A DNA stretch of 64,000 nt from Paludisphaera borealis (GTDB taxonomy: Bacteria > Planctomycetota > Planctomycetia > Isosphaerales > Isosphaeraceae). The position numbers and the translations under genes were made by a program. Below, in pieces: positions 44,564-60,455 of this stretch. The notes under the pieces were generated by a model. The model saw only the letters and a list, made by a program, of their open reading frames with translations. It made no database searches and was not told the DNA's origin. The stretch is taken from positions 620,001 to 684,000 of the forward strand of contig NZ_CP019082.1 of NCBI RefSeq assembly GCF_001956985.1, read 5' to 3'. Each line of letters opens with the position of its first letter. The stretch's first letter is position 1.

Positions 44564-44689
44564 GTGTCAATGGGTCGCGTCCGGCCTGAGCGGGACGAGA
44601 GGAAACTGGCGACCGGCCTGTGAGTGGTTTATCATTGCGGGATCGCAATCGCGTTCGACGGACGAAGTCATGAACCTCGGGGCCTCCTC

Positions 44690-46894
44690 ATGCCTCGCCT
44701 ACTCTTCCTCGCGACGGTCTTCCTGCTCGCGCCCGGATGGTCGGCCCCGCTCCAAGAGGTCGACGCGGACGAGGTGGAGTTCTTCGAGCGGAAGATCCGG
44801 CCGGTGCTGGTCGAGCATTGTTATGCATGCCATTCGGTCGAGTCGTCGACGCGGAAGAAGCTTCGCGGCGGCCTGAAGCTGGACAGTCGGGAGGGGCTGC
44901 TTCGCGGCGGCGACGGCGGACCGGCCGTCGAGCCGGGCAAGCCCGACGAGAGCCTGCTCATCGCGGCCCTTCGTCACGACGACGACTTGCGAATGCCGCC
45001 CAAGGGGAAGCTTCCGGATGAGGTCGTCGCCGACTTCGTCGCGTGGGTCCAGCGGGGCGCCGCCGACCCTCGATCCGAGCCGTCCTCCCCCGCGCGGGAC
45101 GTCGAGAAAGCTCCGCCGGCCGGTCGCGATCATTGGGCGTATCAGCCGCCGGTCGACGCGCCGCCCCCGCCGGTGCGCGACGCCTCGTGGCCCGTCGGTG
45201 CGATCGACCAGTTCCTCCTCGCGCGTCTGGAGGCCGCCGGCCTGCGACCCGCCGTCGAGGCCGACCGCGCGACGCTGATCCGCCGCCTTTCGTTCGACCT
45301 GACCGGCCTGCCGCCGACTCCCGAGGAGATCGATTCGTTCATCCACGACCCAGCGCCCGTCGCCTACGAGCGACTGGTCGATCGCCTGCTCGGCTCGCCC
45401 CATTTCGGCGAGCGCTGGGGACGCCACTGGCTGGACGTGGCCCGCTTCGGCGAGTCGCTGACGCTGCGCGGCCTCGTGCTGAAGGAGGCGTGGCGATACC
45501 GAGATTACGTCATCAACGCCTTCAACGCCGACCTGCCTTTTGATCAGTTCCTCCGCGAACAGATCGCGGGCGACTTGCTCCCGGCCGCCGACCTGGAGTC
45601 CCAGCGTCGGCGGCGGATCGCCGTCACGTTCCTCCTGCTGGGCAACACGAATCTTGAGGAGCAGGACAAGGCGCAGCTCGAAATGGATTTCGTGGACGAG
45701 CAGATCGACGTGATCGGCAAGGCGATCCTGGCCCAGACGATCGCCTGCGCCCGCTGCCACGATCACAAGTTCGACCCGATCCCGACAGCCGACTACTACG
45801 CCCTGGCCGGCATCCTCCACAACGCCAAGGCGTTGAAGCACGACAACGTCTCGAAGTGGATCGAAGCCCCCCTGCCGACGTCTCCGGAACGCGAGGCCGC
45901 CGTCGCGTCGCGCGGGGACATGGCGATGAGCCTCGTGGAGTCGTCCGTGATCACCGAGGGGCGGATTCTCGTGCGGGGCAGCGTTCACAGCCCCGGCTCG
46001 CCGGTGCGGCGCGGCTGGCTGCGTGCGGCGAGCCGGGGGGGGCCGCCCTCCTTGCCGAGCGACCAGAGCGGCCGGCGCGAGCTGGCCGACTGGCTGGCCT
46101 CGGCCGACAATCCGTTGACCGCCCGCGTGATCGCCAACCGCGCCTGGCACTGGCTGTTCGGCGCCGGCCTGGTTCGCACCACCGACAACTTCGGCACGAC
46201 CGGCGAGGCTCCCTCTCATCCCGAGCTGCTCGATTGGCTGGCGATCCGGTTCGTTGAAGACGGCTGGTCGATCAAATCGCTGGTGCGTCGAATCGTCCTG
46301 TCGCGGACGTATCGGCTGGCCTCGGTCGACGCTTCGAACGGCCGCGCGATCGATCCCGAGAATCGCCTGTTGGGCCGGGCCAACCGCCGTCGGCTCGACG
46401 CCGAATGCCTGCGCGACGCAATGCTGTCGGCCTCGGGCCGGCTGCGCCATGAGATGGGAGGCCGATCGTTTCCGCCCGATCTCGCGGCCGATTACGGTTT
46501 CCTGTCGCGCGATTCCCGGCGCGGCGTCTACGAGCCGGTCTTCCGCAACGCCCTGCCCGCTCTGTTCACGGTGTTCGATTTCGCCGACCCGAGCATGGTC
46601 GTCGGCCGGCGCGACGCGAGCATCGTGGCCCCGCAGGCGCTGTTCCTGATGAACAATCCGTTCGTGCTGGAGCAGGCGCGCCACGCCGCCCGCCGCTTGC
46701 TCGCTGAGCCGGCGGCCGACGCTTCCGACCGACTCGGCACCGCCTATCTGCGGGTGCTCGGCCGGGCGCCGACCGAGTCGGAACGCCGCATTACGCTCGA
46801 TTTTCTGGCCCGATCGTCGGCCGAAGACGATGAGGAAGCGTGGTCGCACGTCGTTCACGCCCTGTTCGAGTCGGCCGACTTCCGAAGCTTGTAA
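44690..46894 (+). CDS. PSCyt1-DUF1549-DUF1553 planctomycete cytochrome-type protein
   Basis: 734 residues from ATG 44690 (MPRLLFLATVFLLAPGWSAP), which starts the signal peptide; the longer GTG frame adds unrelated sequence. PSCyt1 haem c domain: FFERKIRPVLVEHCYACHSV (CxxCH) with distal LRMPPKGKLPDEVVADFVAW. DUF1549 (PSD) follows: IDQFLLARLEAAGLRP, LIRRLSFDLTGLPPTPEEID, HFGERWGRHWLDVARF and TIACARCHDHKFDPIPTADY with a second CxxCH. DUF1553 (PSD1) is C-terminal: ADNPLTARVIANRAWHWLFG, DNFGTTGEAPSHPELLDWLA. It is paired with a DUF1501 protein 23 bp downstream, a hallmark couple in Planctomycetes; the biochemical role is unknown, with polysaccharide or sulfatase-linked metabolism often suggested. 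Confidence 0.92.
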   Translation: MPRLLFLATVFLLAPGWSAPLQEVDADEVEFFERKIRPVLVEHCYACHSVESSTRKKLRGGLKLDSREGLLRGGDGGPAVEPGKPDESLLIAALRHDDDLRMPPKGKLPDEVVADFVAWVQRGAADPRSEPSSPARDVEKAPPAGRDHWAYQPPVDAPPPPVRDASWPVGAIDQFLLARLEAAGLRPAVEADRATLIRRLSFDLTGLPPTPEEIDSFIHDPAPVAYERLVDRLLGSPHFGERWGRHWLDVARFGESLTLRGLVLKEAWRYRDYVINAFNADLPFDQFLREQIAGDLLPAADLESQRRRRIAVTFLLLGNTNLEEQDKAQLEMDFVDEQIDVIGKAILAQTIACARCHDHKFDPIPTADYYALAGILHNAKALKHDNVSKWIEAPLPTSPEREAAVASRGDMAMSLVESSVITEGRILVRGSVHSPGSPVRRGWLRAASRGGPPSLPSDQSGRRELADWLASADNPLTARVIANRAWHWLFGAGLVRTTDNFGTTGEAPSHPELLDWLAIRFVEDGWSIKSLVRRIVLSRTYRLASVDASNGRAIDPENRLLGRANRRRLDAECLRDAMLSASGRLRHEMGGRSFPPDLAADYGFLSRDSRRGVYEPVFRNALPALFTVFDFADPSMVVGRRDASIVAPQALFLMNNPFVLEQARHAARRLLAEPAADASDRLGTAYLRVLGRAPTESERRITLDFLARSSAEDDEEAWSHVVHALFESADFRSL

Positions 46895-46917
46895 GCCGTC
46901 CACCCGGAGAATCGCAC

Positions 46918-48342
46918 GTGCCCGGACCCATCCCCCGCCGCGAAATTCTGAAAGCCGCCGGCTGTGGATTCGGCTATCTGGCGCTCGCCGGGCTGGCCGA
47001 CCAGCAGGCCCGCGCCGGCGTGGTCGATCCGACGGCCCCGCGCGCTCCTCACTTCGCGCCCCGGGCGAAGCGCGTCATCTTCCTGTTCATGCAGGGGGGA
47101 GTGAGCCAGGTCGATTCGTTCGATTACAAGCCTCGCCTTGAGCGGGACGCGGGCAAGCAACTCGGCTTCGACGACGCCCGCGTGCTGGCCAACACCGGGA
47201 TGAGAGGATCGTCGCAACTGATCATGAAGTCCCCCTGGAAATTCGCCCGGCACGGCGAGTCCGGCCGTTGGGGCTCGGACCTGTTTCCCGAGTTGAACCA
47301 ATGCGTTGATGATCTCTGCTTCATCCACTCGATGCACACCGAGGGGGTCGCCCACGGGCCGGCCACGCTGTTCCTCCACACCGGGTCGGCGACCTCCGTG
47401 CGGCCGTCGATGGGGTCGTGGGTCCTCTACGGCCTGGGGACCGAGAACCGGGACTTGCCCGGCTTCGTCTCGATCGCCCCGACCAGCGGCAACGGCGGGA
47501 CGCGGAACTACGGCAACGCCTTCCTGCCGGCCGCGTTTCAGGGGACCGCGCTGGGCAAGGCGGGCGGGCGAGCTTCCGAGGCCCGCTTCCGCGACCTCGC
47601 CAGCCTTGGCCAGACCGACGACTCGCGCCGCCGCCACTTTGGGCTGCTCCGCGAGTTGAACGCCGAGCGTTTGCGGCGAAGCCCCGGCGACTCCGAGCTG
47701 GAGGCGCTGGCCGCTTCGTATGAGCTGGCCTGGCGGATGCAGGACAGCGCGCCGGGCGTGCTCGACCTCGCGGGCGAATCGAAGGAAACGCTTTCGCTTT
47801 ACGGCGTCGGAACGCCCGAAACCGACGACTTCGGCCGCCAGTGCCTGTTGGCCCGGAGGATGTGCGAGTCGGGGGTGCGGTTCGTCCAGGTGACCTACGG
47901 CGACGGCACGGCGAACCCCGCGTGGGACCAGCACGCGAACCTCGCCAAGCACTCCGACCACGCCCGCGCGGTGGATCGGCCGATCGCCGGATTGCTGCGC
48001 GACCTGAAGCGGCGGGGGCTGCTCGACGACACGCTCGTCTGGTGGGGCAGCGAGTTCGGACGCACCCCTTACGCCGAGAAGAAAGGGACGGGCCGCGACC
48101 ACAACCCGGGGGGCTTCACCGTCTGGCTGGCCGGCGGCGGCGTGAAGCCCGGCTTCGCCTTCGGCGCCACCGACGACTTCGGCCATCAGGCCGTCCAGGA
48201 TCGGGTCCACATGCACGACCTCCACGCCACGATCCTCCACCTGCTCGGCGTCGACCACGAGCGCCTCACGTATCGCTACGCCGGCCGCGACTTCCGCCTC
48301 ACCGACGTCCACGGCCGAGTCGTACGCGAACTTTTCGCCTGA
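46918..48342 (+). CDS. DUF1501 family Tat-exported protein (sulfatase-like fold)
   Basis: 474 residues from GTG 46918, with CGGAGAATC upstream; the in-frame extension shadows the previous gene. The N-terminus is a Tat signal: PRREILKAAGCGFGYLALAG with twin Arg. Typical DUF1501 motifs follow: KRVIFLFMQGGVSQVDSFDY, SMHTEGVAHGPATLFLHTG, ARRMCESGVRFVQVTYGD, DTLVWWGSEFGRTPYAEK, GRDHNPGGFTVWLAGGGVKP and DLHATILHLLGVDHERLTYR. The fold is related to alkaline phosphatase/sulfatases (Asp/His-rich metal-like sites DH, GRDHNP, DLHATI). It almost always follows a PSCyt1/DUF1553 gene, as here, and presumably works with it in the periplasm. Confidence 0.93.
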   Translation: MPGPIPRREILKAAGCGFGYLALAGLADQQARAGVVDPTAPRAPHFAPRAKRVIFLFMQGGVSQVDSFDYKPRLERDAGKQLGFDDARVLANTGMRGSSQLIMKSPWKFARHGESGRWGSDLFPELNQCVDDLCFIHSMHTEGVAHGPATLFLHTGSATSVRPSMGSWVLYGLGTENRDLPGFVSIAPTSGNGGTRNYGNAFLPAAFQGTALGKAGGRASEARFRDLASLGQTDDSRRRHFGLLRELNAERLRRSPGDSELEALAASYELAWRMQDSAPGVLDLAGESKETLSLYGVGTPETDDFGRQCLLARRMCESGVRFVQVTYGDGTANPAWDQHANLAKHSDHARAVDRPIAGLLRDLKRRGLLDDTLVWWGSEFGRTPYAEKKGTGRDHNPGGFTVWLAGGGVKPGFAFGATDDFGHQAVQDRVHMHDLHATILHLLGVDHERLTYRYAGRDFRLTDVHGRVVRELFA

Positions 48343-48399: not shown

Positions 48400-51027
48400 A
48401 TGACGCGCTCCACGACTCTGCGGCGAATCCGATGGCTTTCCTTCGGCCTTGTGTCGGCGATAGCCGCGGTCGCGGCGCTGTCGAGCCCTCGCGTCGGCTT
48501 GCGGGGCGCTCACGACGCGCGCGTCGGCTCCGGACGGGCGTACGCTTTACTCGGCGACCTGCCCGTGGAACATCGGGGACGCGTGAAACCCCTCAATAGC
48601 ATGGCCGCCGAAGAAGTCGAACGGATTTACGGCCGGTCCGCCATCAAACTCCTCGGCCCCGACGGCAAGGCGACGGCGAGCTGGGAACCCGTGGCGGCGG
48701 TCCTGGACTGGTCGGCCCGTCCTGAGTTCTGGGACGATCAAGACATCATTCTGGTCGACTACCCGCCGTTGAAACGCCTGCTCCTGGAGGCGTCGATCCG
48801 TGAGCAGGTCCGATCGTTGGCCGGCGTGGAAACGTCCGTGGTCGGAAAGTTGCTCCAGGCGCTGGCCGCGCAGCCGGAGCTGGCCGAGGCCGACCTGCGC
48901 GCAGCGGCGCATCAGGCGGGCGAAGCAAGCACGACGGGGAAGACTCTCGACGCCTTGGCCGCCAAGATCGGCGGGGATCTCAAGTGGCTCTCGCCGCGCG
49001 TGCTCGAGAAGACTCAGCTTCAGCACGAAGGTCGCACGCTCACGTTCCCGCGGTGGGCCGGCGAGATCCTGGACAAGAAGGACCGGACCCGTTTCGGCGG
49101 GACGGGGGCCGTCCCGGAACTGACGCTGATCGAGGAGAAGGCGACCGAGCTCGCCGAGCAATTCTTTCGCTACCAGGCGCTCCGGGAGCACAAGAGCCCG
49201 GCGACCAAGCCACTCGACCTTCTGGTGATCCCGCGCCCCTCCGCCGGAACCTACGCCAAATATTCGGCCGAGAGTTTCGAGAAAGGCATGAAGCCTGATC
49301 AGACCCTGTCGCCGTTGGAGGCCAACGTCGCCAACACCCTTGTGGAGTTTCTCCAAAGCCTTCCGAGCAAGGAGTGGGCCCTGCCGGGGGAAGACGGCAT
49401 GTTCGACCAGAAGTTCGGGCTCTGGCTGGGCGATCGTTCGCCCTGGCTCCCCCTGGGGGTCGTCATCCAGAGCGACGAGTCGGAGCTGTCGCGCGCGGGG
49501 TTGCCTCTCAAACAAGTTGTGGCGTTCCGCAAGAGCTATCGAGACCTCGAAGACGCGGAGCGCGCGGAGCCCGGCAACGTCCCCGAGGCCGTCGTGGTCG
49601 CCGTGATCACCGCCGCTCGCGACCTTGGCGCGAGCCTCGGGCGTTACGGCGATTCGACCGCGATGGCGCGCGAGTCGCGTTTGAATCGATTCGCGCCGTT
49701 CTCCAAAGCGCCGATGGCGTACGCCTTGGGTCTGGCGCTGCTGCTGGCGAGTCTGGGGACCAAGGCGGATCTGCGCACGGCCGCCGGGAAACGGAGCGCC
49801 GCGGTCTACGGTTTGGGGATGGTCGGCCTCATGGCCGGGATCGCACTTCAGCTCTACGGCTTCTTGCTCAGGTCTCGCATCGCTCGCTGGGGGCCGGTCA
49901 CGACCATGTACGAGACGGTCGTTTGGGCCGCCCTGGCGACCGCGACCCTGGGCCTCGCGATCGAGCTTCTCTGGCGGAAGAAGTACGCCGCGCTGGCCGG
50001 GAGCGGCGTCGCCTTGCTGGCGACGCTCCTGGCCGAGAACGCGTCGTGCCTCGACCCGAGCATCCAAGCGATCCCGCTGGTGCTGCGGACCAATCGTTGG
50101 CTTGTCGGCCATGTCCTGCCGATCGTCTCCAGCTACGCGGCGTTCGCGCTGGCAATGGGCTTCGGGCTGCTGGCGGCGGGGTGCTGCCTCACGGCGACTT
50201 ATCGCCGATCCCCGTCTTGCCGCGAGCTCGCTTGGCCGCTGTCGCTTGGGATGCCACTCTACGTGCTCGGCCGCTTCGGACTCGACCCGTCGTATCGGCT
50301 CTCGCCTCTATCGATGCTCGACGCCCGTTGGCTCGAGTACGCGAGTTCGGGCGTTGCGGCCTTGGGCGGTGGTCTGACGCTCGTGGGGGGCTTCAGCCTG
50401 CTGGGCGAACTCGCGAATCGGTCGCCTCGGCGCGCGTGCGTCCTCGGAGTCGTCCTGGCGGCGGCCGGCTCGGCCGGGGTGGTCGCCGTTGCGACCGGGA
50501 CAGTCCAGGGACCGTTGGCGAGCGCCCTCGCTTCGTCCGACGCGTGGCTCGTGGGTCTGGTCGGCGGCGCGCTGATCGTGATGAGTCGGCTGGCGGTTCC
50601 CACGCGGGAACCCGTCGCGCGGATCGAGACCCTGGCCGGCTTCAGCTTTCGCGCCATGCAGGTCGGCGTCCTACTCCTCGCGGCGGGCGCGATCCTGGGC
50701 GCCGCGTGGGCTCGCAAAGTCTGGGGGGGATACTGGCGTTGGGAACCCAAGGAGGTCTGGGTCCTGATCACGTTTTTGGTCTATCTCGCGCCTCTGCTTG
50801 GCCGATTCACCGGCCGGATGAGCACGTTCGGACTCGCGGCCTCGTCGGTCGTATGCTTCATGTCTGTACTGGTGTCCTGGTACGGCGTCAACTTCGCGCT
50901 GCGCGTCGGGATGCACAACTTCGGCTTTACCGAAGGCGGGGACGGAAGAATCGTGTCGACCTGCGCGCTCGCCCTGCTGGCGGTCGTCGGCGCCGCGGCG
51001 TGGCGGCGGTCGCGATCGCAGTCGTAG
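48400..51027 (+). CDS. Large CcsA/ResC-type cytochrome c biogenesis protein
   Basis: 875 residues, much longer than the ~320 of plain CcsA. A first membrane helix (WLSFGLVSAIAAVAALSS) is followed by ~400 residues predicted to be periplasmic (VEHRGRVKPLNSMAAEEVER onward), then many helices from about residue 436. The CcsA-type region shows RIARWGPVTTMYETVVWAAL, RTNRWLVGHVLPIVSSYAAF (conserved His), and the Trp-rich haem-handling motif WGGYWRWEPKEVWVLITFL near residue 776, where the usual Asp before PKE is Glu. VGMHNFGF at the C-terminus holds the last conserved His. It would deliver haem for attachment to CxxCH apocytochromes. The gene sits amid several c-type haem proteins, which fits. Confidence 0.85.
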   Translation: MTRSTTLRRIRWLSFGLVSAIAAVAALSSPRVGLRGAHDARVGSGRAYALLGDLPVEHRGRVKPLNSMAAEEVERIYGRSAIKLLGPDGKATASWEPVAAVLDWSARPEFWDDQDIILVDYPPLKRLLLEASIREQVRSLAGVETSVVGKLLQALAAQPELAEADLRAAAHQAGEASTTGKTLDALAAKIGGDLKWLSPRVLEKTQLQHEGRTLTFPRWAGEILDKKDRTRFGGTGAVPELTLIEEKATELAEQFFRYQALREHKSPATKPLDLLVIPRPSAGTYAKYSAESFEKGMKPDQTLSPLEANVANTLVEFLQSLPSKEWALPGEDGMFDQKFGLWLGDRSPWLPLGVVIQSDESELSRAGLPLKQVVAFRKSYRDLEDAERAEPGNVPEAVVVAVITAARDLGASLGRYGDSTAMARESRLNRFAPFSKAPMAYALGLALLLASLGTKADLRTAAGKRSAAVYGLGMVGLMAGIALQLYGFLLRSRIARWGPVTTMYETVVWAALATATLGLAIELLWRKKYAALAGSGVALLATLLAENASCLDPSIQAIPLVLRTNRWLVGHVLPIVSSYAAFALAMGFGLLAAGCCLTATYRRSPSCRELAWPLSLGMPLYVLGRFGLDPSYRLSPLSMLDARWLEYASSGVAALGGGLTLVGGFSLLGELANRSPRRACVLGVVLAAAGSAGVVAVATGTVQGPLASALASSDAWLVGLVGGALIVMSRLAVPTREPVARIETLAGFSFRAMQVGVLLLAAGAILGAAWARKVWGGYWRWEPKEVWVLITFLVYLAPLLGRFTGRMSTFGLAASSVVCFMSVLVSWYGVNFALRVGMHNFGFTEGGDGRIVSTCALALLAVVGAAAWRRSRSQS

Positions 51028-51627: not shown

Positions 51628-54231
51628 ATGTATAAAGGGGCGAGGATTCGGGCAATGGGTGCATTGTGGGGTCCGGGGGGGGCTCGACTGGGTCGCCCGG
51701 GCCGACTGACGCTTGGTTTGGCGTGCATGCTGCGGGTGGGCGTCACCCTCGTCCTTGCCCACGTGGTCGTGCTCGCCGCGGAGGCGAGCGCGGCGGACCA
51801 GCTCGAGAAGCAATTCCGCGAGCGCGTGCAACCCATCCTTGAGGATTACTGCATTGCATGCCATGGCGACGGGATCGACAAAGGGTCCGTGGCGCTCGAC
51901 GAATCCGCGTTGAACCCGGCGCGCCTGCGCGACAAAAAATTCTGGTGGGCCGTACTCAAGAACGTGAGGGCCGGCCTCATGCCCCCAACCGGCGAACCCC
52001 AACCGTCCGAGGCGGAGCGGCGGCTCCTCGTCGATTGGATCAAGTACGGCGCCTTCGGAATCGAGCCGACGACCCCCGACCCCGGCCGCGTCACGGTGCG
52101 GCGGCTCAATCGGGTCGAGTACCGAAACACGATTCGCGACTTGATGGGCGTGAACTATGAAACGAACGTCGAGTTTCCACCCGACGACACGGGTCATGGG
52201 TTCGACAACATCGGCGACGTCCTCACCGTTTCCCCCTTGCTGCTGGAAAAGTACCTCGCCGCCGCGAAGTCCATCGTCGTGCAGGCGGTGCCGGTGGTCC
52301 CGAGAGTCGTCCCGGAAACGAAGATCGCCGGTCGACGCTTCCGCCGAGCGGGCGACGACGAGAAGAAGGACGAAGGGCCATTGCCGCTCTCGTATTACGA
52401 GCCGGCGTCGATTGCAAGCACGTTCCACGCCGAGCACCCGGGCCGGTATCAACTGGTGCTGAACTTGACGGCGACCGACAAGGAGGCCTTTGGAGCCGAC
52501 TACAATAAGTGCCGGGTCGTTTTCAAAGCGGATGATCGGGAATTGTTCCGGCAGGAATTCAGTCGCCAGGACGAGAAGCCGTTCCACACCCAACTGGACC
52601 TCGATTGGAGCGCGGGAGAGCATGAGTTGGCGTTCGTCCTCGAACCGCTGACGCGGGACGAGAAGCGACTCAGATCTCTCACGATCAGGATCGATTCGGT
52701 GGACGTGCGCGGGCCTTGGGAACGCCGTTTCTGGACCCGGCCCGCAAACTATTCCCGCTTTTTCCCGAGCGACGCCCCCGAGGGCGCCCCCGAGCGGCGG
52801 CTTTACGCGCGCTCGCTGCTTCAGGCTTTCGCCAGAAGAGCGTTTCGACGCCCCGCGGACGAGGCGACGGTGGATCGGCTTGCGGCGCTGGCCGAGCGCG
52901 AGTACTCCCGGGAGGGGCGGACCTTCGAGGCCGGCGTCGCCCAAGCGATGGCGGCCGTGCTGGCTTCCCCGATGTTCCTGTTCCGGGAGGAAGGGCTTGA
53001 GGAAGGGTCTTCAGACCGATACCCGCTCATCGACGAATATGCACTGGCTTCGCGGCTGTCGTATTTCCTCTGGTCGTCCATGCCCGACGCCGAGCTGTTT
53101 CGATTGGCCGAGGAGCACGCGCTCAGGAAAAACCTGGCCGCGCAGTTGAAGCGGATGTTCGCCGATCCGCGTTCGAGAGAGTTCGTCCGGCACTTCGTCG
53201 GGCAGTGGCTGCAGGCGCGCGACGTCGAGACGGTCCCGATCAATGCGTTCGCCGTGATCCACCGCGATCAGCCGTTCGATCCCGAGGCGGACCGACTCCG
53301 GGCGCGACTGCAAGAACTGAACCGTCGATTCCCCGAGACGCTCACCGACGAAGAGCGGAAAGAACGGAACGAAGTGCGCGCGGCGTTCTTCAAAACGTTT
53401 CGCGGCGTCCGCGAGCACGAGTTGAACGACGAATTGCGCCAGGCCATGAGGCTCGAATCCGAGATGCTCGTCGACCGCGTTCTTCGCCAAGACCGCAGTC
53501 TGCGGGAGCTGCTGGTCAGCGATTACACCTTCCTGAACGAGCGGCTGGCGAAACACTATGGGATCGGCGGGGTCGAAGGCAAGGAAATGCGTCTCGTCGC
53601 ACTGCCGCCCGAGAGCCCGCGCGGCGGCGTTCTGACGCTCGGAGCCGTGCTGGCCGTGACATCGAACCCGGATCGAACCTCTCCGGTGAAGCGAGGCTTG
53701 TTCATCCTCGACAACATCCTGGGAACTCCCCCGCCGCCTCAACCGCCGAACATCCCCCCTCTGGAAAAGTCCGCGAAGGAATTCGCCGGCCGCACTCCGA
53801 CCTTGCGGGAGACCCTGGAGCTGCACCGCGCAAAGCCCCAGTGCAGCGCCTGCCATAATCGGATGGATCCCCTGGGATTGGCCTTGGAAAACTTCAATGC
53901 GCTCGGTGTTTGGCGGGAACGGGAGCAAGGCGGTCCCGTGAATTCGAGCGGCAGGCTCCTCACCGGCGAGTCCTTCTCGAACGTCCAGGAGCTGAAGCGC
54001 ATCTTGGCCGACGAACACGGCCGCGATTTCTTTCGCTGTCTCAGCGAGAAAATGCTGACGTATGCTTTAGGGCGCGGTCTCGACTATCAGGACGTGGAGA
54101 CGATTGATTCGCTGGTGGATCACATTGAACGAGAGAACGGCCGCGCTGGCGCGTTGATCTCCGGCGTCGTCGAATCGGCGCCGTTTCAGAGAGGCCGAAG
54201 ACCCGCGGAGGGGAAGTCCCCGAGCCCGTGA
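51628..54231 (+). CDS. Planctomycete cytochrome protein with DUF1587-DUF1592-DUF1588-DUF1585
   Basis: 867 residues from ATG 51628; ATG 51655 is an equally possible start and keeps the signal peptide (ACMLRVGVTLVLAHVVVLAA). PSCyt-like haem domain: QPILEDYCIACHGDG with ADQLEKQFRERV before and GLMPPTGEPQPSEAERRLL after. Then DUF1587 (VTVRRLNRVEYRNTIRDLMG ... FPPDDTGHGFDNIGDVL), a beta-rich carbohydrate-binding-like insert (YQLVLNLTATDKEAFG), DUF1592 (LLQAFARRAFRRPADEATVD, YALASRLSYFLWSSMPDAEL), DUF1588 (GVLTLGAVLAVTSNPDRTSP, LFILDNILGTPPPPQPPNIP), CSACHNRMDPLGLALENFNA (second CxxCH) and DUF1585 (FFRCLSEKMLTYALGRGLDY). It is partnered with the DUF1552 gene 52 bp downstream. Precise function unknown; periplasmic. 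Confidence 0.92.
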   Translation: MYKGARIRAMGALWGPGGARLGRPGRLTLGLACMLRVGVTLVLAHVVVLAAEASAADQLEKQFRERVQPILEDYCIACHGDGIDKGSVALDESALNPARLRDKKFWWAVLKNVRAGLMPPTGEPQPSEAERRLLVDWIKYGAFGIEPTTPDPGRVTVRRLNRVEYRNTIRDLMGVNYETNVEFPPDDTGHGFDNIGDVLTVSPLLLEKYLAAAKSIVVQAVPVVPRVVPETKIAGRRFRRAGDDEKKDEGPLPLSYYEPASIASTFHAEHPGRYQLVLNLTATDKEAFGADYNKCRVVFKADDRELFRQEFSRQDEKPFHTQLDLDWSAGEHELAFVLEPLTRDEKRLRSLTIRIDSVDVRGPWERRFWTRPANYSRFFPSDAPEGAPERRLYARSLLQAFARRAFRRPADEATVDRLAALAEREYSREGRTFEAGVAQAMAAVLASPMFLFREEGLEEGSSDRYPLIDEYALASRLSYFLWSSMPDAELFRLAEEHALRKNLAAQLKRMFADPRSREFVRHFVGQWLQARDVETVPINAFAVIHRDQPFDPEADRLRARLQELNRRFPETLTDEERKERNEVRAAFFKTFRGVREHELNDELRQAMRLESEMLVDRVLRQDRSLRELLVSDYTFLNERLAKHYGIGGVEGKEMRLVALPPESPRGGVLTLGAVLAVTSNPDRTSPVKRGLFILDNILGTPPPPQPPNIPPLEKSAKEFAGRTPTLRETLELHRAKPQCSACHNRMDPLGLALENFNALGVWREREQGGPVNSSGRLLTGESFSNVQELKRILADEHGRDFFRCLSEKMLTYALGRGLDYQDVETIDSLVDHIERENGRAGALISGVVESAPFQRGRRPAEGKSPSP

Positions 54232-55804: not shown

Positions 55805-56755
55805 ATGAGTCTTCGGACGAAACGCGCCTTGGTCGTTGCGCTCGGGATGACGCCGCTGCTCGGCGTCATCGTCGAGGCTCAAGGGGCTGGCGAGCCGCCG
55901 ACGTCGCTCCAGGTTCCTGGGATCGAGAACGTCTTCCGGCTGGGGCCCGGTCTTTACAGCGGCGGCCAGCCGAACGGCGCCGCGAGCTTCGCCGCGTTGA
56001 AGGCGATGGGGGTCAAGACGATTCTGACCGTCGACGGCGCGGCGCCGGACGTCGAGGCGGCTCGAAAACTCGGCCTCCGCTACGTGCATCTGCCGGTCGG
56101 TTACGACGGCATCCCGCGCGAGCAGGCGTTGAGGATCATCCAGGCGGTCCGGATGCTGCCGGGGCCGGTGTTCGTCCACTGCCATCACGGGAAGCATCGC
56201 GGTCCCGCCGCGGCGGCCCTCTGCGGCATCGCCATCGAGGGATGGAGCAAGGGTGACGCGGCTTCCTGGCTGAAGCAGGCGGGGACGTCGCCGGATTATC
56301 GGGGCCTGTACGCGACGGTGGCCGATTTCCAGCCGCCCTCGCCCGCCGAGCTGGCGAAGCTGGGCACGGATTTCCCGGAGCGCGCCCCAGCGCCCGCCCT
56401 GGTCGAGCGGATGGTGGCGATCGATGGAGGCTGGGACCGGATTAAGGCGATCCGCGACGCCGGTTACAAGCCGCCGGCGTCACACCCGGACGTCGACCCT
56501 CCGCATGAAGCCTTGCAGTTGGCCGAGCAATTCAAGGAGATGGCGAGGAACGCGGAGACGAAGCGCCGAGGCGCGGATTTAGTCGGCCGGTCGGAAGCGG
56601 CGGCCCGGCTCGCGAGCGATTTCGAGGCCGCGCTGCGACGACACGGCGATTCCCCGAACGAAGCGACCCGGAAAAAGCTCGATGACGGCTTTGTCGCGAT
56701 CGGTAGAAGTTGCACCGACTGTCATGCTCGACATCGCGACGAGAAATCAAAATAA
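55805..56755 (+). CDS. Exported cysteine-type phosphatase fused to a C-terminal CxxCH haem-binding helix domain
   Basis: 316 residues. A signal peptide (RALVVALGMTPLLGVIVEA) leads into a dual-specificity/tyrosine-phosphatase-like domain: VFRLGPGLYSGGQPNGAASF and the catalytic P-loop HCHHGKHRGP (Cys126-x5-Arg132). A later helical region (about 230-316) ends in GRSCTDCHARHRDEKSK, a class-c haem attachment site (Cys303, Cys306, His307), in a helical context like cytochrome c' (ALQLAEQFKEMARNAETKRR). The combination of a Cys-phosphatase with c-haem is unusual. The gene closes the block of cytochrome-type genes, 102 bp after the DUF1552 gene. The substrate is unknown, and the phosphatase active site might be regulated by the haem. 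Confidence 0.82.
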   Translation: MSLRTKRALVVALGMTPLLGVIVEAQGAGEPPTSLQVPGIENVFRLGPGLYSGGQPNGAASFAALKAMGVKTILTVDGAAPDVEAARKLGLRYVHLPVGYDGIPREQALRIIQAVRMLPGPVFVHCHHGKHRGPAAAALCGIAIEGWSKGDAASWLKQAGTSPDYRGLYATVADFQPPSPAELAKLGTDFPERAPAPALVERMVAIDGGWDRIKAIRDAGYKPPASHPDVDPPHEALQLAEQFKEMARNAETKRRGADLVGRSEAAARLASDFEAALRRHGDSPNEATRKKLDDGFVAIGRSCTDCHARHRDEKSK

Positions 56756-57260: not shown

Positions 57261-60161
57261 TTATGCTGACGTCTTGCTCTTGAGCGGGACGGTTGTGAGC
57301 CAGAGATCGGTTGCTGGGGCGGCCATGGAGTTCAGGACCGCCTGCGCCATGATTTCACCGCTTACGCTGGCGCTCGAATTCCTTGCACCGCCGTCGCCGG
57401 CGAGAGAGGCGATCGCCGCGGCGTGGACGTCGGCCGCGCCGGTCGACGCGGCGAGCGAGCCACTGGCCGGCGTCGCGGCCATGGCGAGGCTCGGCGAATC
57501 GGGGTTGATGGTCAGGACGCCATTGTCGGCGACGTTCAAATCGTAGGCGATCAGCGCCCCGTCGATCGGAGGCAGCGTCGCGGTTCCCGGGCCGGGGTTG
57601 ATGGTCACGCGCCCGTTGCCGCTGATATCGACCGCCGCGTGAGCGGCGTAAGCCACCCCAGTCAGGTTGAGCTTCGCATTCTCCGTGACGCGGATCGGGT
57701 TGCTGGAGGCCGGGGCCTGGAGGACTACGACTCCTTGATACGGACCGCTCGTCAGGGCCGTCAGATTCAGTTGTCCTAGGCCGGAGAGGGTGATCGTGTC
57801 CCGGGGGCCGCTTGGGACGTTGATGATCAGGACGTCGCTTCCCTTGACCACTCCATTGCCGGACACCGAGAGCCCGCCGCCCTTCAGGTAGTAGACGCCC
57901 GGGGCGAGCGTCACCGTGGCGTTGCCGGAGACGTGGATGCCGCCGAGGTAAGTGCCTGGAGAGAGCGTGAGCGGCACGCTTCTCGTGTCATTGACCGCGC
58001 CGAAGAGCGGGGACGGGGGCGTGGGCAACCCAAGCCCCAGCGGATCGGGGACCGCGGCGTCATGATCGGCCGTGGGGTTGATGGTCGCGTTGCCCCAGGT
58101 GGATACGCCGCCGCCGACATGGATTTGCGACGCGCTTAGCTTGCCGTTCTGGGCGACGACGGCCGCGTAGTAAGGGGCGTTGGAGTCGACGACCACCGCG
58201 CCGCAGCCTGTGACGACGACGTTGCCGTTGCCGGTGACCAGGAGAGAGCCGGCGGCCGTGGGGTCGAGCAGCAGGAGGCCGAGGTCGTCCTTGATCGTGG
58301 CCGTACTGGTCGCGACTGACGGTACGGACGATTCGTGATCGATGGTGGTCGTGATCGTGTAGTTGCCGTGCGAGGCGTAGGCGTGGGCGCCGTTGACGGT
58401 GAAGACGCCGCCGGCATAGGAGATGGAGCCGACCGAGCTGCCGGTGCCGTCGCCCCAGTCGATGGAGGCCGAGTAGTCGTTGAGGCTCTCCGGCCCGCCG
58501 GGGTCGGTGAAGGTCGCCGGCGAAACCGTGATCGTCTTGCAGTTCACCGCGAAGACAGGAACCCCCACGGCCACGACCGACGGGTCGGAGACCGTGGCCG
58601 AACTTGCGACCACCGTCATGGGCGCCGACTCGTGGTGGATGGTCACGGTGATGACGTAGGGCTGCGAGCCAGGGTGTTCGGGCCCGCTCTCCTCGGCGTA
58701 AGTGTGAACGCCGTGGACCTCGAAGGTCGAGCCGTTGAAGACGATCGAGCCGGCCCCGACCTGCGTCCCGGAGCCGTCGCCCCAGTTGACGTCGGCCGAG
58801 TAATCGCCGATCGGCTCCGGGCCGCCGGGGTCGGTGAACGTCGCCAGCACCACCGAGCCGGTGCTGGCTCCTTCGACCGCACTGATCGACCGGCCGGTGG
58901 CGATCACGGCTGGATCGGAGACGTTCACCTGGAAGGTTTTGGACTGCGTCTGGCTGGTGAAGTCGTTGACCGTGACCGTCACGGTGTAGCTTCCCTCCTC
59001 AGCGTACTTATGCGGCTTGGATCCCAGCGAGCCCGCGCTGTTGAGGAAGAAGCTGGTGTTCGACGAACCGTCCCCCCACGCGACCGTCACGCCCCAGGGA
59101 GCCGCATCGGGGTCGGTGAAACTTCCCAGGTTGAACGCCTTGGCCGCACCCTCGACCCCCGTCTGATCCGCGGCAGCCGTCACCTGGGGGACGTTCAGGA
59201 CGAGCGAATAGCCGAGAACGTCGAGCCGCGTCAGTTCGGCGGCGTCCAGATTCGCGGTCGCTCCCGGCGTATTGAACGCGTCTTGCACCTGGGGCGTCTG
59301 GCCGCCGAAGAAGCTGTACCAGTCGCCGTAATCCCCCGCGTACGCCGCTGTATGGGTTTGGTTGAATCGTGCGAGGTCGGTCGTGCCGCCGTCGATGGAG
59401 AAATACGCTTGATCCGTCGCCGTCGAGCTATAGCTTCGGGCGCCGTTTTGATCGTACCGAAACAAGTCGTCGGGACGGACCATTCCGGTGGGGACCGGAG
59501 TGCCATTATTCGCCGCGTCGAGTGATGAGCCGAAGCCCAGGATCTCGTCGATCTCGTGCGCGGTCACGGCCTGCAAGTCGTACTTGGAGGCGTCTTGCAC
59601 CGACGTGCGATCGAGATTACAGATGGCCGTGTTGAGCGTGATCGTGCCGTCGCCCGCGGCACCCCCGGCGTTCGGCGCGTTGAATCCCAATGCCCGAGCG
59701 AGGGGCGACCTCACGGCGATTTGACTGTTGTTGTTGATTGGGTCGTTGGTTTGCACCGGAAGCGATGCGATCGCGGTGTTGTCGTTCGCGGTCGTCGCAT
59801 GGCTGACCAGGGCGGAGCGGTAGTCCGCGTACTTGATGAAATAGAGAAGGCCGCCCGAACTTCCTCCAAGTCCGCCGCCTTCCTGGAAGGTAATGTCGAC
59901 CGTGACGTTGTCGGTGATCAGATTCTCATAGGCCGCAATCGTCCTGTTGATCGTGCCTTCGATGGCGGCCGCGTTGGGATCGTTGGTGATGCTGCTGTCG
60001 AAGGTCGCATTGATCACCAGCGCCATGAGTTGTCGAGCTTCAAGCTGCTCGAGCCGTGGCCGAGTTTGAGACGCGCCTCGACCTCGGAAGTGGTGGCTCG
60101 TCGAAGTCCGCGGTCGGCCTCGCCGACCACGACCCGTCAAGGAGTTCGTGGACAGAATCAT
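57261..60161 (-). CDS. Surface protein: metalloprotease-like domain plus PKD repeats
   Basis: 966 residues from ATG 60161 (MILSTNSLTGRGRRGRPRTS). The N-terminus has a basic leader and RLEQLEARQLMALVINATF, close to the LEPRxLL-type motif found on many planctomycete exoproteins. Next comes a domain like the NF038122-type metalloproteases: TVDITFQEGGGLGGSSGG, DLQAVTAHEIDEILGFGSSL with HEIDE from His202 where HExxH is expected, and AELTRLDVLGYSLV. Three PKD/Ig-like domains follow, each with 'FTDPG.. DYSA.V.WGDG.G' (GDYSADVNWGDGSGTQVGAG; NDYSASIDWGDGTGSSVGSI). The C-terminal ~300 residues are a beta-rich, Gly/Asn/Val repeat domain (VTGNGNVVVTGCGAVVVD; VSGNATVTLAPGVYYLKGGG) ending in Ala/Ser-rich sequence. 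Probably a large secreted or surface-attached protein. Confidence 0.85.
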   Translation of the reverse strand: MILSTNSLTGRGRRGRPRTSTSHHFRGRGASQTRPRLEQLEARQLMALVINATFDSSITNDPNAAAIEGTINRTIAAYENLITDNVTVDITFQEGGGLGGSSGGLLYFIKYADYRSALVSHATTANDNTAIASLPVQTNDPINNNSQIAVRSPLARALGFNAPNAGGAAGDGTITLNTAICNLDRTSVQDASKYDLQAVTAHEIDEILGFGSSLDAANNGTPVPTGMVRPDDLFRYDQNGARSYSSTATDQAYFSIDGGTTDLARFNQTHTAAYAGDYGDWYSFFGGQTPQVQDAFNTPGATANLDAAELTRLDVLGYSLVLNVPQVTAAADQTGVEGAAKAFNLGSFTDPDAAPWGVTVAWGDGSSNTSFFLNSAGSLGSKPHKYAEEGSYTVTVTVNDFTSQTQSKTFQVNVSDPAVIATGRSISAVEGASTGSVVLATFTDPGGPEPIGDYSADVNWGDGSGTQVGAGSIVFNGSTFEVHGVHTYAEESGPEHPGSQPYVITVTIHHESAPMTVVASSATVSDPSVVAVGVPVFAVNCKTITVSPATFTDPGGPESLNDYSASIDWGDGTGSSVGSISYAGGVFTVNGAHAYASHGNYTITTTIDHESSVPSVATSTATIKDDLGLLLLDPTAAGSLLVTGNGNVVVTGCGAVVVDSNAPYYAAVVAQNGKLSASQIHVGGGVSTWGNATINPTADHDAAVPDPLGLGLPTPPSPLFGAVNDTRSVPLTLSPGTYLGGIHVSGNATVTLAPGVYYLKGGGLSVSGNGVVKGSDVLIINVPSGPRDTITLSGLGQLNLTALTSGPYQGVVVLQAPASSNPIRVTENAKLNLTGVAYAAHAAVDISGNGRVTINPGPGTATLPPIDGALIAYDLNVADNGVLTINPDSPSLAMAATPASGSLAASTGAADVHAAAIASLAGDGGARNSSASVSGEIMAQAVLNSMAAPATDLWLTTVPLKSKTSA

Positions 60162-60455
60162 GATGTGCAGTCCTGGTGATATGGTGCGATCGCGTCGCCG
60201 AACCGTTTCGTATCCAGGTTTCCGCCCGGGTCGCAGGTCCACTGGGTCGTCGGAACCGATCGCTGGTGTTTTCGCGAAGTGATTTGCGGACAGGCTTCGC
60301 ATAATAGGTTAATTGGATCGTGTTGCAAGAAAATAATTGAGAATCGGGCCAAGAATGGTTGAAGCTGTTTCGTCATCGACTGGTTTTCGAACACGCGGCC
60401 TCGTTTTGGCCGTCGCCGAGCGTGCCGAAAGAAAGTGGGGAGCCGGGGCGACTGC
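60162..60455. other. Intergenic region between the PKD gene start and the TPR/propeller gene stop
   Basis: Contains a relatively A+T-rich stretch (60300-60345, with AAAATAATTGAG) that may hold the PKD-gene promoter. No gene or repeat is recognised. Confidence 0.4.

Follow-up and report, generated by a model that had tools for sequence, protein, structure and literature searches.

Does Paludisphaera borealis export an enzyme in which a phosphatase-type cysteine and a covalently attached haem are built into one polypeptide, and what could the one do for the other? The locus that raises this question lies in a stretch of 64,000 nucleotides (G000:C1:620001-684000) of a 7.65 Mb genome; this whole stretch is referred to as the window. 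An initial annotation had pointed to the loop HCHHGKHRGP in the first half and to CTDCH at the C-terminus of one exported protein. Translation of the open reading frame at 55805-56755 (+), which starts with ATG, shows both motifs, at residues 125–134 and 303–307, and an export signal, MSLRTKRALVVALGMTPLLGVIVEA followed by Q, was recognized by eye. The features are as follows.

55805..56755 (+): gene for a fusion of an exported TpbA-like cysteine phosphatase and a class II cytochrome c, 316 amino acids, stop codon within the coordinates (ORF list, translation, model)
55805..55876 (+): Sec-type signal peptide, residues ~1–24 (VEA/Q), read by eye from the translation
55922..56314 (+): dual-specificity-phosphatase-fold domain, residues ~40–170 (sequence search, profile, structure comparison)
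56105..56107 (+): Asp101, aligned with TpbA Asp105, proposed general acid (alignment; Asp in 103 of 162 homologues)
56177..56206 (+): phosphate-binding loop HCHHGKHRGP with Cys126, Lys130, His131, Arg132 and Gly133 (translation, homologue alignment)
56387..56740 (+): class II cytochrome c (cytochrome c'/b562-like) four-helix domain, residues ~195–312 (profiles, model)
56411..56413 (+): Met203, predicted sixth haem ligand (alignment; Met in 162 of 162)
56711..56725 (+): CTDCH, predicted haem c attachment site with His307 as proximal ligand (translation, alignment)
50599..50898 (+): match to the cytochrome c assembly family PF01578 within the ORF 48400-51027 (profile match, G000:C1:670599-670898); context only, outside the fusion protein

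The initial annotation had named only the haem motif of the second half, which makes up an entire class II cytochrome domain with an invariant methionine. The AlphaFold2 model of the mature full-length protein has a pLDDT of 96.6 and a pTM of 0.91. The fusion is present once in its own genome, together with one phosphatase-only paralogue (G000:C1:6018975, loop HCARGTCRTG).

Spread of the fusion and its unfused relatives

The same fusion was sought in other genomes. A search of 59 genomes, including that of the window, gave matches in 51, and 30 loci were kept, 29 of which are fusions besides the one in the window. Genome contigs yielded 35 loci, 31 of them full length, from MAGs and isolates of Planctomycetota, Verrucomicrobia and Lentisphaerales. 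Of 292 genomes drawn evenly from the phylum, 133 have a match at E ≤ 1e-20; 15 of these contain the phosphatase half only, which leaves about 118 with the fusion. In two of the latter (G176 and G203) the contig runs out ahead of the haem site, and L214 was also inspected. The pairing first noticed in a single gene is therefore found in about 118 of the 292 sampled genomes of the phylum, and in Verrucomicrobia and Lentisphaerales MAGs as well.

From the 59-genome search, the genome contigs and MAGs, and all 117 other full-length places of the 292-genome draw we pooled 162 distinct fused proteins, picked for a profile match over both halves; homologues from which the cytochrome half is missing altogether were counted as unfused. 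Cys126, Gly129, Arg132, Val76, Pro97, Tyr100, Met203, Cys303, Cys306 and His307 are each present in 162/162. His95, His125 and Leu168 are each found in 161, His128 in 159 and His131 in 158, while position 130 is Lys in 115 and Arg in 30. An earlier count over 119 of these rows gave the same picture. Conservation of CxxCH in homologues, on which the initial annotation had let its proposal stand or fall, is complete in the fused set (162/162). The full HCx5R loop is present in the window protein and in 161 of the 162, the exception being a protein from G263 with the loop TCETGRDR, in which Cys, Arg and CxxCH are retained. This diverged fused member (L132, G263:C1:1254300-1255500) also keeps the Met, and its open frame has a membrane-like segment ahead of the protein. 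With a conservation of 162/162, the two motifs do not occur together by chance.

One locus resembles the cytochrome half only: a 127-residue ORF (L097:3113-3496, G001:C6) is 42% identical over query residues 180–314 and has a serine-recombinase-like ORF nearby. Since a full fusion is present in that genome as well, the 127-residue ORF is perhaps a remnant copy.

Unfused homologues occupy 24 rows and comprise 23 distinct proteins (the L063/L178 duplicate counted once), and an in-frame CxxCH occurs in 0/23. The catalytic Arg is followed by Thr in 20 of them and by Ser, Ala and Gly in one each. The three without Thr (G059, HCHAGRHRAS; G168, HCKNGKHRSA; G178, HCHHGKHRGG) have the top scores against the fused profile. 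A FastTree phylogeny of the phosphatase halves (119 fused, 23 unfused), with three distant paralogues as the root, places the fused proteins, these three and the Acidobacteria protein L066 in one group with a support of 0.999. No unfused protein among the 23 falls inside the fused clade, the node of which has a support of only 0.54.

For all three of these nearest unfused phosphatases (L193, G059:C171; L194, G168:C283; L195, G178:C171) the gene that follows directly downstream, in the same orientation, encodes a separate class II cytochrome with a C-terminal CxxCH and, where the N-terminus is complete, a lipobox-like signal as judged by eye. The phosphatase frame of L195 contains a second, partial phosphatase-like match. 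Class II cytochrome profiles gave no match beside 22 other distinct unfused loci (L196-L213, L064-L066 and L215), the flanks of which are mostly ~3 kb or more on each side (short on one side for L196, L203 and L210). One of them, L215, also has a non-Thr loop (HCHGGNHRAG) and shows no cytochrome within ~3 kb, so that a non-Thr loop goes together with an adjoining cytochrome gene in three of four unfused relatives. Since the three nearest unfused phosphatases adjoin a cytochrome gene and the profiles show none beside the 22 others, the two parts appear to be functionally linked.

The surroundings of the gene vary. Neighbour clustering of 61 loci gave no conserved operon partner among the first 25 clusters and indicates no pathway; the commonest cluster among these, besides the gene itself and overlapping frames, is sulfatase-like by eye and occurs at eight loci. 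One synteny block is common to three MAG loci (L049, L052 and L053). With flanks of ~1.5 kb or up to 5 kb, the window neighbours that we take to be of the DUF1592, DUF1552 and CcsA types have matches at 0/60 loci, and homologues of the window genes at 44624-48342 occur at six of the 60 (L016, L018, L019, L020, L034 and L055). The assembly family PF01578 has three matches in the genome; the one in the window points to a haem c maturation gene close to the fusion, in favour of the predicted covalent haem. Near this large ORF, 48400-51027, the window ORFs 44624-46894 and 51628-54231 contain CxxCH. Convergent with the phosphatase gene is a 1013-residue ORF (57261-60302, −) with repeated 'DPGGPE...DYSA.(V/I)(N/D)WGDG' segments that looks secreted by eye.

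Aquisphaera giovannonii and Planctomyces sp. SH-PL62 carry the fusion gene on plasmids (L191 and L192; pOJF2_1 and pPL62-1). The two records annotate it as 'dual specificity protein phosphatase' or 'hypothetical protein', leaving the haem half unannotated there. In SH-PL62 the distance to a DUF3365 gene is ~1 kb, and genes for cytochrome c oxidase are close by.

The phosphatase half

The closest solved relative of the first half in sequence and fold is TpbA (PA3885), the periplasmic dual-specificity phosphatase of Pseudomonas aeruginosa. It is the best phmmer match (E = 3e-12 over residues 31–162) and aligns with the model of the mature protein with Z = 18.3 and an r.m.s.d. of 3.0 over 155 residues. 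Like the window protein, TpbA is exported and carries an HCx5R loop, with Asp105 at the position of Asp101; it differs in that its solved chains (193 and 218 amino acids) are without a haem domain and that its loop reads HCKHGNNR followed by Thr. SIW14 (Z = 16.9), AtPFA-DSP1 (Z = 16.4) and PRL structures (Z = 15.0 for 1xm2 and 14.7 for 9mex) also align, and 566 of the 993 chains compared reach Z ≥ 8, in agreement with a PTP/DSP fold. A profile built from 61 members matches DUF442, PRL, VHR and PFA-DSP structures as well. A Pfam scan of this half of the window protein gave no family at its cut-off, and BLH_phosphatase (PF04273) is matched by 32 of the 61 members.

The Ser/Thr that follows the catalytic arginine in related enzymes is Gly133 in the window protein, and among the fused homologues this position is Gly in 130, Ser in 28 and Ala in four. 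The general-acid Asp is present as Asp101 and is found in 103 of the 162, followed in frequency by Ser (17) and Lys (15). The initial reading of a cysteine phosphatase with a haem c site thus stands as regards the fold (TpbA, both by sequence and by structure) and, by sequence profile, the class II haem c domain; a phosphatase activity we infer, because the active site departs from that of classical phosphatases, with Gly usually after the Arg and a variable general-acid Asp. These two departures could mean that the site is weak or non-hydrolytic.

The loop can be set beside that of the Siw14/PFA-DSP inositol pyrophosphatases of yeast and plants, which share HCxxGKHR and a similar fold (Z = 16–17). 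The Siw14-specific loop is HCxRGKHRT, and enzymes with it are pyrophosphatases according to the sections of PMC10653929 consulted. HCHHGKHRG shares GKHR with this loop and is without its Arg and Thr, which correspond to His128 and Gly133, respectively; a haem domain is not mentioned for the yeast and plant enzymes in the excerpts used here. PFA-DSP1 is described, in extracts of PMC9038691, as working without a general acid: a P-loop Lys and His hold the substrate and mutation of His155 costs 95–98% of the activity. The dispensability of Asp101 could be explained in the same way, because His131 sits at the position of His155. This histidine may matter less here than in PFA-DSP1, since the matching His-to-Ala change in ScSiw14 lowered activity only fivefold (PMC10653929, in part).

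Could the cysteine have left phosphate chemistry altogether? The protein would then be a cysteine oxidoreductase or sulfurtransferase in which a Cys126 persulfide or oxidized sulfur passes electrons to the fused haem. Asp101 is absent from 59 of the 162 proteins and Gly or Ala follows the Arg in 134, yet Cys, Arg, Met and CxxCH are invariant, which speaks for such a loss. There are also weak matches to the sulfurtransferase-annotated Blh family NF040641 (E = 4.7e-4) and to TIGR01244 (E = 0.0089), in addition to PF04273 in 32/61. Both NCBIfam matches are, however, far below their cut-offs (19.1 versus 625 bits and 16.1 versus 85.85 bits, respectively), and the loop is a five-residue P-loop of the phosphatase type with GKHR, as in proven pyrophosphatases in the sources cited in part above. 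We regard a sulfur enzyme as fairly unlikely.

The PRL (PTP4A) phosphatases, animal proteins that are not known to carry haem, offer another comparison. As in the window protein, no Ser/Thr follows their catalytic Arg (Ala in PRLs, Gly here), although the rest of their loop is different. A PRL-like pseudophosphatase would bind phosphate in the loop or form a long-lived phosphocysteine, serving as a switch or partner site that is reported through the haem domain. The PRL structures among the fold matches and the prevalence of Gly/Ala after the Arg, akin to the Ala of PRLs, fit this description; according to the portion of PMC12192612 consulted, A111S speeds and D72A slows hydrolysis of the phosphocysteine in PRL. 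Against it, HCHHGKHR has extra basic residues like the Siw14 enzymes that do turn over, the Asp is kept in 103/162 and Ser follows the Arg in 28/162, so that a pseudophosphatase seems decidedly improbable to us.

The cytochrome half and its predicted haem ligands

Only a profile detected the nature of the second half; phmmer with the cytochrome half of the window protein alone returned no cytochrome. Among PDB chains, the 61-member profile (residues 188–316) finds cytochromes c' (best E = 9.9e-7) and cytochrome b562 (6.1e-5). PF01322 is matched at E ≤ 0.1 in 60 of the 61 members (best E = 5.3e-9). The window protein itself scores 15.9 bits, below the Pfam cut-off of 26.5, which three fused relatives exceed (G003:C118, G042:C1:4519377 and G001:C5). 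In an hhalign comparison with 11 stand-alone planctomycete class II cytochromes (probability 96.7%, E = 3.5e-10), the invariant Met of the one set aligns with that of the other.

Modelled alone, the domain forms a four-helix bundle (pLDDT 95.2; helices 11–31, 45–61, 70–93 and 99–124). The top structure in VIA-align is the anammox heterodimer Kusta0087/0088 (6r6m; r.m.s.d. 2.6, 105 residues aligned), with a Z of 12.3 that helical bundles can reach through common arrangement alone; cytochromes c', b562 and some designed bundles follow. Foldseek with this half alone gave nothing below E = 0.001, the best cytochrome having E = 0.72. Because of this and because bundles reach such Z scores by arrangement, the class II assignment rests on the sequence profile and on the position of CxxCH, which lies near the C-terminus in the last helix in 162/162 (helix 260–284 of the full-length model). 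The fold and the motif position are those of the class II cytochromes c (cytochrome c', b562 and the anammox NaxLS, Kusta0087/0088), which differ in being separate small proteins, whereas the domain described here is fused to an enzyme.

The invariant methionine is informative about the haem. If helix A aligns without gaps, first-residue offsets pair Met203 with residue 32 of the Kusta0087/0088 chain (6r6m) and with residue 7 of b562. Cys32 of the Kusta chain is the residue changed according to the titles of 6r6n and 6r6o, and Met7 of b562 is an axial haem ligand, so that the helix-A ligand position of b562 would match Met203 by offset; the same comparison with cytochrome c' itself is not decisive. 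This supports the prediction of a six-coordinate His/Met haem.

A haem with an open sixth site would suggest another type of control. Cytochromes c' have a five-coordinate haem, and a domain of this type could bind NO or CO and thereby switch the enzyme. The best profile matches are indeed cytochromes c', and the first fold match, Kusta0087/0088, is a complex reported to bind nitric oxide. Extracytoplasmic haem c Cache domains sense NO, according to the abstract of PMC12889525. These sCache_heme (DUF3365) sensors resemble the window protein in that haem c has been recruited to an extracytoplasmic module; they have a Cache fold rather than a phosphatase fold, and no homology is claimed. Since Met203 is invariant (162/162) and on the position of b562 residue 7 would close the sixth site, a six-coordinate redox haem is favoured over control by a ligand, and we think a gas-controlled phosphatase distinctly unlikely.

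More plainly, the haem domain would serve only as a structural element or as a dock to a respiratory complex, without controlling catalysis. Class II cytochromes are common (PF01322 in 21/21 genomes), and in Planctomyces sp. SH-PL62 cytochrome oxidase genes are close at hand. A structural role would hardly need a Met, two Cys and a His unchanged in every one of 162 proteins, and we give this explanation very little weight.

A proposed redox-gated phosphatase in the envelope

Two domains, their joint conservation and the adjacent split genes of the three nearest unfused relatives are what a functional proposal has to accommodate. The reading that we put forward, at roughly even odds, is that of a periplasmic enzyme that unites a cysteine phosphatase fold and a class II cytochrome c in one chain, and in which the cysteine chemistry is gated or protected according to whether the haem is oxidized or reduced. 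From sequence we infer a phosphatase or phosphoanhydrase activity, haem binding and control by the haem. In the periplasm, CTDCH would bind the haem covalently, and His307 and Met203 would be the axial ligands that make it a six-coordinate redox haem. Cys126 and Arg132 would attack a phosphate group, with His131 and Lys130 taking part of the usual role of the Asp, as in PFA-DSP/Siw14, and Gly133 in place of Ser/Thr may slow phosphocysteine turnover, as with Ala111 in the PRL phosphatases. Periplasmic electron carriers would set the redox state of the haem, which in turn would gate or protect Cys126, so that dephosphorylation would follow the respiratory state. Alternatively, the haem (probably His307/Met203) may take electrons from Cys126. 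The substrate is probably either highly anionic (a phosphoanhydride, polyphosphate or inositol polyphosphate) or an envelope phosphoprotein.

The haem-phosphatase family is real and widely conserved; the function outlined above is a prediction. More tentatively, and with clearly less than even confidence, we propose that its members in Planctomycetota, Verrucomicrobia and Lentisphaerales are haem c-gated periplasmic phosphatases or phosphoanhydrases that couple the redox state of periplasmic electron transport to dephosphorylation of envelope proteins or polyanionic phosphates. The parts, phosphatase and class II cytochrome, are of known kinds; their pairing is without a description among the titles and starts of abstracts in partial listings from an open-access library, in keeping with the remark in the initial annotation that it knew of no described enzyme with both. 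If the haem-gated reading is true, we know of no earlier phosphatase that is controlled by a haem attached covalently to the enzyme itself.

Cysteine phosphatases readily lose activity on oxidation. Even so, the window gene joins one to a predicted redox haem on the outer side of the membrane, and all 162 fused homologues retain both sites. In these bacteria, extracytoplasmic dephosphorylation may be coupled to electron flow, and, if the haem gates the cysteine, one protein would wire envelope phosphorylation to respiration.
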